In this document: positions 35,253-39,645 of the stretch, one piece after another
Layout: every line of letters starts with the position of its first letter
Numbering within the stretch: the first letter of the stretch is position 1
Assembly: GCA_024228575.1 (NCBI GenBank)
Contig: JAAETH010000750.1
Span: 1-41,694, forward strand
Direction: 5' to 3'
Length of the DNA stretch: 41,694 bases
DNA from: Actinomycetes bacterium
GTDB taxonomy: Bacteria; Actinomycetota; Acidimicrobiia; Acidimicrobiales; Poriferisodalaceae
Made by a program: the position numbers and the translations under genes
The notes under the pieces: generated by a model
Told to the model about the DNA's origin: nothing
Seen by the model: only the letters and a program-made list of their open reading frames with translations
Databases searched by the model: none

Positions 35253-36857
35253 CTAGGTCCTGCCGGGAGTGCGGGAAACACCCGAACTCTTGGTGGGGAC
35301 CTCGGGCCGGGCACTCGAGACATGATGGGCCGATCCGCCCGTGGCCTTGGCGGTGTACATGGCCTCATCGGCACGGCGCAACAGGCCATCAGCTGTTTCG
35401 CCGGGCTCGCCGACAGCGATGCCGATACTGGTGCCCACGCTGGCCAGGGTGACGCCGACATCGATGGGTTCGGTCAGCGCGGCGATGATGTCGAGGGCGA
35501 GGATTCGCAGCCGTGCGATGTTCGACGGGCGGGCCACGACGACAAATTCATCACCACCGAGACGCACGGCTACGTCATATTCACCAACGGTGTCAGAGAG
35601 TCGTGAAGCTACCTCGACCAGCACAGCATCACCGGCGTTGTGTCCGATCGAGTCGTTGACCGCCTTGAACCCGTCGAGGTCGAGAAACAGGATCGCCGTC
35701 TCGCCGATGTCGAGTTCGGCGAGTTGGCTGAACAGCTCGGCTCGGTTCGGCAGGCCGGTGAGAACATCGTGCCTCGCATCGTGGGCCAGCTGCTGGGACC
35801 AGCGCGCGAGGGCCTCGAAGGTGTGGGCTGCCTGCCACGCCGCCTGCACCTGCTTGACCAGGACACCGACCGACTCGACAGATGCCGACTCCGCGGCGAG
35901 GGTCTCAGTCGCCCACACACGAAAGGCGATCGAACGTCCGTCGTCCGTGGCAAATCCCGCGACAATCCGGCTGTGGTACCCAAGTGAGCTGAGCGCGTAC
36001 ATGGTATTCGAGTCTGTCGGTCCAATCCCTTCGGTCAGGATCGAGGCCATGCCCACTTCGTCCAGCAGCGGATCCCCTTCAGGGTCCATCGCGTCGGAGG
36101 AACCGCGAGCGGCCACCGTGTTCCAGCGTTTCGACGCCGGTGTGTACTCACACGAGTCGACCCGTGCGAAGCCGATCTCGCCAAGAGCATCCAAGGCCAT
36201 GGCCACGACGGCCTCGGGGCTCTCCGCACCCGCCATCTTCTCAGCAGCGGCGCCGAGCGACCTGAGCTGTCTCGAGCGTTCGTCAGCCAGATTCCTGGCA
36301 TCGCTCGTACGTTCGAGGTCGTCACGCAATCTGCTGGCGATGATCGAGGCCGGGATGACGATCGCACCCACGGCCGCGAGTTGCTGTACGGCGATCCGCA
36401 GAAGGCTGGCGGACGTATCGTCGGGCGCTGCGGTCTGCAGCTGGACCGCGATGTGGGTCACGCTGACGGCCAACCACGCGGTCATCGCTCCCTTGGAACC
36501 CCAGGCACTCGACGCATCCAGAACTGGTACGACGAGCGCGATCCAAACGAGTGGCGTGGCGTCCATGTCCACTGCCAGCATCACCGTGAGGGCGAGCAAG
36601 GCATCGAACACCACCTGAACGGCAGGTCTTGTCTCGAGAGCCGACCCAGCCGACAGATTGGCCAGCAGATTCGCCGCCGCCAGCACCATCGCGCCGACGA
36701 TGAAGGTCACATTGAGTTCGAGGGTGCTCTGACTGTCGGGCTGCAACAGCACAAGCACCCCGGCCGCGATGCTCAGAAGGACCCGAAGGGCGCGCAACGC
36801 ATCCTTCAGCGCGTCGTTGCGGAACTGGCCGGTGTCCTCTTCATCTGTTGAAGTCAT
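35253..36857 (-). CDS. Membrane-bound diguanylate cyclase (GGDEF)
   Basis: A 534-aa protein. Residues about 20-175 contain five or six hydrophobic helices; about 200-345 is a GAF-like sensor region after a short coiled-coil linker (residues 180-205); 360-515 is a GGDEF domain with DVLTGLPNRA, FLDLDGFKAVND, GHNAGD and an intact GGDEF at 434-438. It should make c-di-GMP. The inhibitory RxxD site is degenerate (GEYD at 425-428), so product feedback at this site is probably lost. The start is ATG 36857. It is divergent from the pseudo-kinase genes. Confidence 0.92.
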   Translation of the reverse strand: MTSTDEEDTGQFRNDALKDALRALRVLLSIAAGVLVLLQPDSQSTLELNVTFIVGAMVLAAANLLANLSAGSALETRPAVQVVFDALLALTVMLAVDMDATPLVWIALVVPVLDASSAWGSKGAMTAWLAVSVTHIAVQLQTAAPDDTSASLLRIAVQQLAAVGAIVIPASIIASRLRDDLERTSDARNLADERSRQLRSLGAAAEKMAGAESPEAVVAMALDALGEIGFARVDSCEYTPASKRWNTVAARGSSDAMDPEGDPLLDEVGMASILTEGIGPTDSNTMYALSSLGYHSRIVAGFATDDGRSIAFRVWATETLAAESASVESVGVLVKQVQAAWQAAHTFEALARWSQQLAHDARHDVLTGLPNRAELFSQLAELDIGETAILFLDLDGFKAVNDSIGHNAGDAVLVEVASRLSDTVGEYDVAVRLGGDEFVVVARPSNIARLRILALDIIAALTEPIDVGVTLASVGTSIGIAVGEPGETADGLLRRADEAMYTAKATGGSAHHVSSARPEVPTKSSGVSRTPGRT

Positions 36858-36931
36858 CGGATCAATCGTCGACCGCTGGCGTTCATACCTGAGCGGCGAA
36901 ATCAACAGAACATCGAGGAGGGGCGGCAACG

Positions 36932-38311
36932 GTGAATTTGGCCCAGCGGCGGTCGACGTTGTTGTCCATGGATGCAGAGGCCTTCCGCGACGGACAAATA
37001 GGGAGAGTACGAGCGCGCCGGCGGCGTTCACAAGCCGTTGCGGCCATCGCCGTCACAACTCTGCTGCTCATCACGTCCGGCGTCTTCTCGATTGCACAGG
37101 CGTCGAAGCGAATCACGGACCGGGCCTCGGTTGTGCACTTGTACGACGAGCTAGTCCAGAGTGTCACCGTTGCGCGCACCCAGCTCGGCTTCTCAATCGT
37201 GTTGGCCGAGCTTGCATCCGAGGCAGAGGTGAACGTTGGTTCGGCTCTGAGCGCAAATCAAGAGGACATCGACTCTGCCCTCGCGCGCCTCGACCAGACC
37301 GCCGTCGACTTCGACAGCCGGTTCGACGGACTCAGCACCGACACCGCGGATTCGATCGATGAGTTCACCTCGGCGACCACCACCCTGATACAGGAGTTCG
37401 CCGCGGGCTTTGCAACGCCGCAGGCGGTCGCCGACTTCACCACAACCCACAACCAGGTTCGTTCGTTGCTGGACCGCGATCGCAGTGCAGCGATCGGGCG
37501 AGTCGCGAACGCGGATGCGACGGTCGGTCGGCTGGGAACGTTGCTCAGCTTCGTGGTGGCCTTCGTCATTCCGACTGTGGCCTTGTTCGTGTACACGGAG
37601 TTGACTCGGCCACGTCGTGACCTCGAGACGCTCGAAGCGACGGCACGCGAGAGTAGAGGTCGCAATACCGTGGTGAGAGCGCTCAGCACCGACCTGATGA
37701 GCAACGCCGTCGCCGAGGGGGCGGCCACCGATATCGATGTGGATCTGAGGCGCGACATCGCATCGCTGAGCGCAACTCTCGATGTGTTGCACCGTCAGCA
37801 CGATCTGCGGTTCGAACCCACCACAATCGACGACTTCCTCACCGAAATCGCCCAGACCATCTCGGATCACACTCGCGGTGTCGGGCTGTTGATGTGCACA
37901 GGGGAGGCGTCGACAAAGGTGAACGTCGATCGCTCGGCCGTTGGAATCGCACTCGATTGGCTGACGATCGACGCTATCGAGTGTGGGGCCACGAACATCG
38001 AGTGCCACGTGCGCGATGTCGTCGGCGGCATCGAGGTGACGTTGACCCAGGACGGTGTTCCCCGTCGAGCGAGCGAAGTCCAGCTTGCAATCGACAGGGT
38101 TTCGGTGCCGGATCGGCTAACGGTTGGTGCAGGTGGCGCCAGCACCGCCATAGCGGTCGCCTGCGAGCTGATACGAGCCTCCGGTGGTTCTCTGGGCGTG
38201 AAACAGGATGTGTCGGGTGGGGCGAAGTTGATCATCTTCTTGCCTGCCGCGAAGGCAGAGGCGAATGCCGTGGCGCTCGATCCGTCGGCCGTGTCCGCCA
38301 CTTCGGCCTGA
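36932..38311 (+). CDS. Histidine-kinase-like membrane protein lacking catalytic motifs (copy 1)
   Basis: A 459-aa protein: basic N-terminus, TM1 (about 34-56), a helical extracytoplasmic domain of about 145 residues, TM2 (201-221) and a cytoplasmic part (230-459). That part has a HATPase-like fold pattern: helix ALDWLTIDAIECGATNIE at the N-box position, TQDGVPR at the G1 position and GGASTAIAVACELIRASGG at the G2 position. The N-box Asn and DxGxG are missing, and there is no H-box with a phospho-accepting His. It is probably not an active kinase. The start is GTG 36932 with GAGGAGGGG upstream. The next gene is its paralogue. Confidence 0.8.
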   Translation: MNLAQRRSTLLSMDAEAFRDGQIGRVRARRRRSQAVAAIAVTTLLLITSGVFSIAQASKRITDRASVVHLYDELVQSVTVARTQLGFSIVLAELASEAEVNVGSALSANQEDIDSALARLDQTAVDFDSRFDGLSTDTADSIDEFTSATTTLIQEFAAGFATPQAVADFTTTHNQVRSLLDRDRSAAIGRVANADATVGRLGTLLSFVVAFVIPTVALFVYTELTRPRRDLETLEATARESRGRNTVVRALSTDLMSNAVAEGAATDIDVDLRRDIASLSATLDVLHRQHDLRFEPTTIDDFLTEIAQTISDHTRGVGLLMCTGEASTKVNVDRSAVGIALDWLTIDAIECGATNIECHVRDVVGGIEVTLTQDGVPRRASEVQLAIDRVSVPDRLTVGAGGASTAIAVACELIRASGGSLGVKQDVSGGAKLIIFLPAAKAEANAVALDPSAVSATSA

Positions 38312-38343
38312 AGTGCCCGAGTCAACGGCCGACTGAGGTCTCC

Positions 38344-39645
38344 GTGGACAACACCGGCGGCATCGTCAAACGGCGAGAAGGCGAGAAGACCAAGCGACGT
38401 CGGGCCGCGGTGTTGGGCGTCGTTGTTGGCGTCGCCTTGCTGGGCCTTGCGCTGGGCATATTCAGTGTCGGCCGCTCCGCTCGGCGTGTCACCGAACGAG
38501 CAGGAGCTGCCCACGCATATGACGAGCTGCTGATGACGGCAACGGTCGTGAGGGCCCAGGTCGGCTTCACGGTTCTGGTTGCAGATCTTGGCGAGACCGC
38601 TGGTATCGACGTTTCAGGACCGGTTTCATCGAACCAGGACGACATCTCCGCATCGCTGACCAGCATGACCAGGATCGTCGAGGAGACAACGCGCGACTTC
38701 GGCGGTCTGGGCCCAGCAACAATCGACGCTGTCGAGCGCTTCCGCGAGGAGGTCAAGTCGATCACACTTGCGCTTGGCGACAACAAGTCGGCCATAGCCG
38801 ACACCTTGGAACTCGAGTACTCCTTCCTGACCGACGTCGTCGCCGAGGATCGCGATGCAGCCTTGCAACTGCTGATTGAAGCCGACGACGAACTGAGCAA
38901 TCTCGGAACTGCGGTCGGCGCTGCCGTTGCCTTCCTGTTGCCGGCCATCGCCGTCATCCTGTATCGCCAACTGACCGCACCGAGCCGCGAGGTCATCGCG
39001 CTCGAGTCATCGCTGGCCAAGGAGCACACCCAGAGCATGGTCCGCCGGCTGCTGGTGTCTCGATTCGTGGAACGGGTCCGAAGGAGACCCTCGAGCCACC
39101 TGACCGATCAGATCGAACGTTATGTCACCAGCACCGAAATCGTCGACGGCACCACCGAACCCAACCTCTGTGAGATCAGTTCGGGTGACCTGTCGAGATT
39201 CCTGTGGCGCAGCGCCCGCTTGGCTGACATCGAGGTCGAGGTTGACGGACCCGCCTCGATCGCCATCCTCGCCGACACGAGTCTCTCCTTCGACGCGATG
39301 CGTCTCGTCATGCGCGACATGAAGTCGGGTGGAGCAAGCGTGGCCCGGTGCGAGATAGTTGCCTTCCACGATTCGGTCGAGCTGAGGATCGATCACGACG
39401 GCGTCGGGCGCAGCGCACGCGAGGCCGAACTGGCGCTATCGCCCCTCGAAACCGACGTCGTCGGCAGGCGAGGACCGACGCGCACCGCCGATCTGTGGGT
39501 CGCCCGCACACTGTTGCGCGCGGGCGGTGCCGATATCAAGGGCCCATCAGGGAGTCCGACCCACACCTTTGCCCTGACATTCCCCCGCATCGCAGTCGAC
39601 AAGTCTGGACAGCCCGACCAGGCCTTGTCCGCCGCCCACACCTGA
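38344..39645 (+). CDS. Histidine-kinase-like membrane protein lacking catalytic motifs (copy 2)
   Basis: A 433-aa paralogue of the preceding protein with the same layout: TM1 (about 21-43), helical outer domain (44-187), TM2 (188-207), cytoplasmic HATPase-like domain. The outer domains align clearly: YDEL is shared, VVRAQVGFTVLVADL matches VARTQLGFSIVLAEL, and SSNQDDI matches SANQEDI. The C-terminal domain is even more degenerate: DAMRLVMRDMKSGGAS, HDGVGRS and TADLWVARTLLRAGG stand for N, G1 and G2. GTG 38344 has GAGG 6 bases upstream and lies 32 bases after copy 1. No response regulator is adjacent. Confidence 0.8.
   Translation: MDNTGGIVKRREGEKTKRRRAAVLGVVVGVALLGLALGIFSVGRSARRVTERAGAAHAYDELLMTATVVRAQVGFTVLVADLGETAGIDVSGPVSSNQDDISASLTSMTRIVEETTRDFGGLGPATIDAVERFREEVKSITLALGDNKSAIADTLELEYSFLTDVVAEDRDAALQLLIEADDELSNLGTAVGAAVAFLLPAIAVILYRQLTAPSREVIALESSLAKEHTQSMVRRLLVSRFVERVRRRPSSHLTDQIERYVTSTEIVDGTTEPNLCEISSGDLSRFLWRSARLADIEVEVDGPASIAILADTSLSFDAMRLVMRDMKSGGASVARCEIVAFHDSVELRIDHDGVGRSAREAELALSPLETDVVGRRGPTRTADLWVARTLLRAGGADIKGPSGSPTHTFALTFPRIAVDKSGQPDQALSAAHT

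Follow-up and report, generated by a model that had tools for sequence, protein, structure and literature searches.

A membrane diguanylate cyclase, a pair of membrane pseudo-histidine kinases (P1 and P2) and a giant secreted surface protein are encoded side by side in the window (the whole 41,694-nucleotide stretch analysed here, contig C750 of a 6.15-Mb genome assembly from the order Acidimicrobiales), and we give about an even chance to the reading that such a cyclase, its pseudokinase or pseudokinases and the surface protein make up one transmembrane signalling cassette, in which the pseudokinase relays by direct contact. The reading builds on a protein fold, a loss of motifs, a conserved gene set, a kinship with intact kinases and a conserved protein tail, each of them found by computation.

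The original prediction placed two adjacent paralogues at 36932 and 38344, and both positions proved right: P1 and P2 share 28% identity (E 6e-35), with P1 starting at GTG 36932 or, alternatively, at ATG 36968. Their frames are unbroken in a second species of the same genus (G004), the dN/dS values against that species are about 0.29 for P1 and 0.38 for P2 (approximate, as dS exceeds 1), and their codon-position GC is of the coding type; both are real genes and under purifying selection. Searched with Pfam, HATPase_c scored 20.8 bits against P1 (E 5e-4), below its 26.4 cut-off, and did not match P2, and HisKA matched neither protein. When both were aligned with 15 intact relatives from their sensor family, no H-box His was found in P1 or P2, the N-box Asn was replaced by Asp in both, and the G1 Asp was replaced by Gln in P1 and by His in P2 (HDGVG). 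The phospho-acceptor His and the N and G1 ATP-binding motifs of HisKA kinases, which had been described as lacking before any database was searched, are indeed missing by both profile and alignment, and P1 and P2 are predicted to have no autokinase activity.

An AlphaFold2 model of P1 (P1 only, single chain, 34-row alignment; mean pLDDT 82.8) runs from a transmembrane (TM) helix through a four-helix outer bundle and a second TM helix, which leads into a DHp-like helix pair, to an alpha/beta CA-like domain, and Foldseek matched the cytoplasmic half to HK853, CpxA, RetS and DivL at E 1e-10 to 1e-8. P1 is predicted from this model to have a histidine-kinase fold, that is, DHp and CA on a TM sensor; the sensor-kinase shape proposed earlier for both proteins was recovered in P1 by model and structure search and in P2 by alignment. 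The sensor region of P1 is common to intact kinases of the class (profile matches in other families, to model positions 1-235). A cognate response regulator, as is found near HisKA kinases, is absent from the P1/P2 locus, in line with the original prediction: Response_reg has 43 matches in the genome, all of them on other contigs.

The cyclase gene diverges from P1 across 74 bases and its inhibitory site is degenerate, both as had been noted at the outset, with GEYD in place of RxxD. The GGDEF signature and substrate-binding residues of a diguanylate cyclase are kept, and the protein is 73% identical to the neighbouring cyclase of G004. Among the module cyclases surveyed below, all 22 keep the catalytic signature (GGDEM in L092 and L095, GGDEF in the others) along with most of the substrate-motif residues, and the motif table shows that none of the 22 has an RxxD I-site. 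This product-inhibition site is common in diguanylate cyclases and is no requirement; its being missing suggests that there is no product inhibition at that site. The kinase-like partners of the two GGDEM cyclases (L092:10521-12305 and L095:10431-11981) are also a distinct pair.

The window's giant protein combines a signal-peptide-like start, a CSLREA-like motif, a right-handed beta-helix and FG-GAP repeats; its gene is cut by the contig end, and its TM helix and tail are therefore assumed from relatives. The surface proteins of the cassettes span 533 to nearly 5,000 residues, most of them being large, and the outer domains of the giant proteins comprise FG-GAP, LamG, Ig, cadherin-like and LRR repeats. 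At the C-terminal end of most complete ones, a Thr/Pro-rich stretch or Ig-like domains precede a TM helix, to which a basic stretch and a tail of ~75 residues are joined; the tail is homologous between the pseudokinase cassettes and loci with intact kinases and, by the positive-inside rule, is probably cytoplasmic. The AlphaFold2 model of the tail is a small, mostly beta domain (pLDDT 82.7), the best Foldseek match of which was a protein with a bacterial SH3-type domain (probability 1.00, but a weak E of 0.098), and Pfam SH3_3 matched 3 of 16 tails, weakly in sequence (best E 0.014); the tail is predicted to be SH3b-like. At the intact-kinase loci the tail runs on past this part into a conserved cytoplasmic region of ~150 residues, which had no significant Pfam match and is absent from the pseudokinase cassettes.

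Table. Positions of the features discussed, numbered from the first letter of the window or, where a locus is named, within that locus.
Feature	Positions	Strand	Evidence and remarks
Membrane diguanylate cyclase: N-terminal multi-TM region, middle region without Pfam match, C-terminal GGDEF domain	35253..36857	-	Pfam GGDEF E 1.6e-36
Divergent intergenic region, 74 bases, cyclase to P1	36858..36931	.	ATG at 36857, GTG at 36932
P1, first membrane pseudo-histidine kinase	36932..38311	+	ORF, Pfam, alignment, AlphaFold2, Foldseek
P1 first TM helix (approximate)	37031..37096	+	Hydrophobic stretch inside long helix 3-98 of model
P1 extracytoplasmic four-helix sensor region (limits approximate)	37100..37531	+	AlphaFold2 helices, mostly pLDDT > 90
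P1 DHp-like helix pair without H-box (ASHELRTP in intact relatives)	37604..37789	+	Alignment
P1 CA-like (HATPase_c-like) domain; N-box Asn to Asp, G1 DxGxG to QDGVP	37811..38251	+	Pfam, alignment, AlphaFold2, Foldseek
P2, second membrane pseudo-histidine kinase; layout as P1 by alignment, more degenerate	38344..39645	+	No Pfam match
Secreted giant surface protein, N-terminal 604 residues; runs past contig end	39883..41694	+	Pfam FG-GAP E 1.6e-19, Beta_helix E 8.8e-8
Tail extension of ~150 residues	L147:9894-10643, L050:880-1629, L143:5613-6356, L140:4060-4821		Intact-kinase loci
CheY-like receiver	L041:8040-8432	-	Family f52
CheY-like receiver	L046:6702-7091	+	Family f52
BMP/ABC/permease-like genes	L038:242-4175, L089:1-4699, L099:12514-17511, L102:1602-6539		Genus g88

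The occurrence of the gene set was surveyed by a profile search over 397 genomes of the order followed by a read-out of the neighbourhoods. Genes were called by a simple codon-position script with approximate starts, many assemblies are fragmented, and few candidates were scored per genome, so that the number of cassettes is a lower bound. The kinase-like gene was found at 23 loci, encoding 25 proteins (two each in the window and G004), in families f1, f20, f30 and f82. A cyclase of a single subfamily adjoins it at 22 of the 23 (the exception being L106), divergent in many and, in others, co-directional, just upstream and overlapping it by 4 bases, and a secreted surface protein lies directly downstream at 20 of 21 assessable loci (all but L098; that of L099 is short and without the tail). 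Since loci were found via the kinase-like gene or, as with L133, via the cyclase, only the partner gene counts as an independent observation; by our own rough estimate of ~40 GGDEF-like candidates among ~4,000 genes, chance would make such neighbours at about 2% of loci. A reverse search with the cyclase profile (E ≤ 1e-60) returned 25 hits, 21 of them adjoining a kinase-like gene of this family and the other four being frames of 913-1127 aa, taken by their length only as GGDEF-EAL fusions. Overlaps of 4 bases between pseudokinase and giant-protein genes (L038, L091, L097) and between cyclase and pseudokinase genes (L089, L098, L102) imply co-expression, and G004 holds the same four genes as the window in the same order.

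The cassette is patchy and is missing from most families of the order in the sampled genomes. A single-sequence search of the genomes of the window's family matched, beyond the window's own genome, only G004, and one of the genome contigs with P1 gave no match where an alignment query did; a class-wide search with a broad profile (A4) was swamped by ordinary kinase domains and was excluded from the counts. A literature search, which largely did not reach subscription journals, found no account of this gene set. Several genomes of genus g88 have BMP-type-lipoprotein-like, ABC-ATPase-like and permease-like genes near the cassette though the cassette types differ, and at L098, where the giant protein is missing, the kinase-like gene is followed by a lipoprotein-like gene which by eye resembles an L,D-transpeptidase (L098:11097-11930). 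A riboswitch was also considered and dropped, as Rfam matched only tRNAs in seven sources.

The loss of kinase motifs differs in extent between members. HisKA matched none of the 25 module proteins, as against all 15 intact relatives, and HATPase_c (E 0.01) matched 11 of the 25 as against all 15. All motifs are lost in the window's lineage, L038 and L088, whereas seven members keep the N-box Asn and the G1 motif (L089, L098, L099, L101, L102, L105 and L106) and may bind ATP, and in L092 the H-box position still carries a His; the set is therefore not made up of dead kinases alone, and degeneration is graded. The distances among cyclases and among pseudokinases are correlated (Mantel rho 0.49; best of 2000 permutations 0.35), and matching cyclase and pseudokinase partners are mostly kept in the parallel cassettes of one genome, both as expected if the two genes were inherited jointly. 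Two or three divergent cassettes occur in each of four genomes: G553 (L094, L095, L104), G602 (L091, L092), G680 (L088, L089) and G588 (L100, L101). This multiplicity suggests distinct giant proteins with dedicated pseudokinase and cyclase partners.

The sensor half is common to kinases of other families of the class with an intact ASHELRTP and N-box, and a large secreted protein is encoded downstream of these at 14 of 15 loci, with an adjacent cyclase at none of the 15. The pairs of intact kinase and giant protein in other orders of Acidimicrobiia (L039-L054) resemble the cassette in their sensor region, in the similar giant protein downstream and in its homologous SH3b-like tail, but differ in having HisKA and HATPase_c intact, no adjacent cyclase and the additional cytoplasmic region described above. 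At two loci of one family a CheY-like single receiver (Response_reg E about 1e-26) lies directly upstream of the pair and is a candidate phosphotransfer output of the ancestral unit; these receivers accompany intact kinases of another order and leave the case for P1 and P2 as it was. In a maximum-likelihood tree, which has no resolved root and carries several module rows on long branches, one branch with 100/100 support parts the module proteins from the intact kinases. The direction of change, from intact to dead, is assumed on the ground that the intact state is the working one and is spread over other families, and the best reading of these sequences is that in Acidimicrobiales a kinase/giant-protein unit gave up phosphotransfer and acquired a cyclase.

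Within the window's genus, the only one with two tandem copies, P1 and P2 branch as sisters (support 95/80), which places a tandem duplication in that lineage. As every other locus has one kinase-like gene, a homodimer is likely to be the ancestral state and a heterodimer at most a local feature: P1 and P2 may form one in the window's genus, and a heterodimer in general was rejected. The original prediction had proposed that the pair may be a heterodimeric sensor that acts on the cyclase or the surface-protein gene without phosphotransfer. The tie of sensors lacking phosphotransfer residues to both genes stands, in four families, and the kinase-like gene and the cyclase stay together in relatives; its heterodimer did not hold as a general feature, nor did the second copy outside the genus.

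The ancestral unit, of a kind still found in other orders, would likely have paired the gene of a membrane sensor kinase with a downstream gene for a giant surface protein that crosses the membrane once and has an SH3b-like tail in the cytoplasm. In Acidimicrobiales the phospho-acceptor His of this kinase would have disappeared, along with the ATP-binding residues in the window's lineage, and the kinase would have become tied to a membrane diguanylate cyclase. The pseudokinase would now be a relay that works by conformational change: the outer four-helix bundle, the CA-like domain or both would read what state the giant protein, or the surface that it touches, is in, and the DHp/CA-like body would by direct contact change how the neighbouring cyclase dimerises or how active it is. 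Local c-di-GMP would in this way be set by surface contact or by export of the giant protein; the physical contact, the direction of signalling and the effect on cyclase activity are what we infer here. This suggests that the cell surface could control c-di-GMP without phosphate transfer. We propose more tentatively, and at clearly less than even chances, that the cassette is a receptor of a new layout, in which a giant multi-domain surface protein (FG-GAP, LamG, Ig, cadherin-like, LRR) with an SH3b-like cytoplasmic tail would act on a phosphotransfer-dead histidine kinase, and this on the membrane diguanylate cyclase, the whole being derived from the kinase-based version of the sister orders.

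The signal could instead run from the inside out: the cyclase would come first, and the pseudokinase would be an anchor that responds to c-di-GMP or to the cyclase and retains, exports or releases the giant protein, as a functional analogue of LapD-LapA built from a different protein. The giant protein is directly downstream with frames that sometimes overlap, the I-site is missing, and degenerate enzymes serve as such switches elsewhere, LapD being one that links c-di-GMP to a surface adhesin (PMC3032553); common to both systems are a degenerate signalling enzyme and a large surface adhesin that share a pathway with c-di-GMP. However, LapD combines HAMP with degenerate GGDEF/EAL domains and works via the protease LapG, whereas the cassette has a histidine kinase as its degenerate partner, keeps the cyclase motif intact (in the window without an EAL domain) and encodes a giant protein predicted to be anchored in the membrane with its tail in the cytoplasm. 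Pfam recognised no c-di-GMP-binding domain in the pseudokinase or the giant protein, no protease, LapG-like or other, was identified among the adjacent genes, and the intact-kinase units have no adjacent cyclase, which argues that the kinase/giant pairing is independent of c-di-GMP; we consider this direction rather unlikely, though it is the most probable of the alternatives.

Less probable again is a modulating action of the pseudokinases on an intact histidine kinase whose gene lies elsewhere, with the cyclase as a co-regulated neighbour or parallel output. Dead or repurposed kinases do act in this way, RetS and DivL are among the Foldseek matches of P1, and the 43 Response_reg matches tell of ordinary systems in the genome. 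The Caulobacter pseudo-histidine kinase DivL, like P1, has a histidine-kinase fold with DHp and CA and no phospho-acceptor His; it was reported to show neither kinase nor phosphatase activity and weak ATP binding, with its kinase region reused for protein sensing (PMC4211667). But DivL, whose sensor domains are of the PAS type, reads DivK~P and has the kinase CckA under its control, while the cassette has a four-helix outer bundle, a cyclase and a giant surface protein as constant partners and no response regulator. RetS, too, is a histidine-kinase-fold protein that acts on another signalling protein by contact, but its target in the RetS/GacS multikinase system is an intact kinase (PMC5992135), and none is linked to the cassette; across the surveyed loci no kinase or receiver gene is a constant neighbour, whereas the cyclase is. 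That P1 and P2 are decaying pseudogenes of a former kinase would agree with the lost catalytic motifs, but the open frames of 25 members across families, the conserved architecture and gene order and a dN/dS of about 0.3-0.4 make this highly improbable, and it was rejected.

The kinases of Acidimicrobiia offer a natural series on one kind of surface protein, from intact kinases through proteins which lack the H-box and keep ATP-binding motifs to fully degenerate ones, making it testable how a two-component sensor is rewired to a second-messenger output without phosphotransfer. If the reading of the pseudokinase as a relay is true, the giant surface proteins of uncultured Acidimicrobiia would have a signalling role and not a purely adhesive one.
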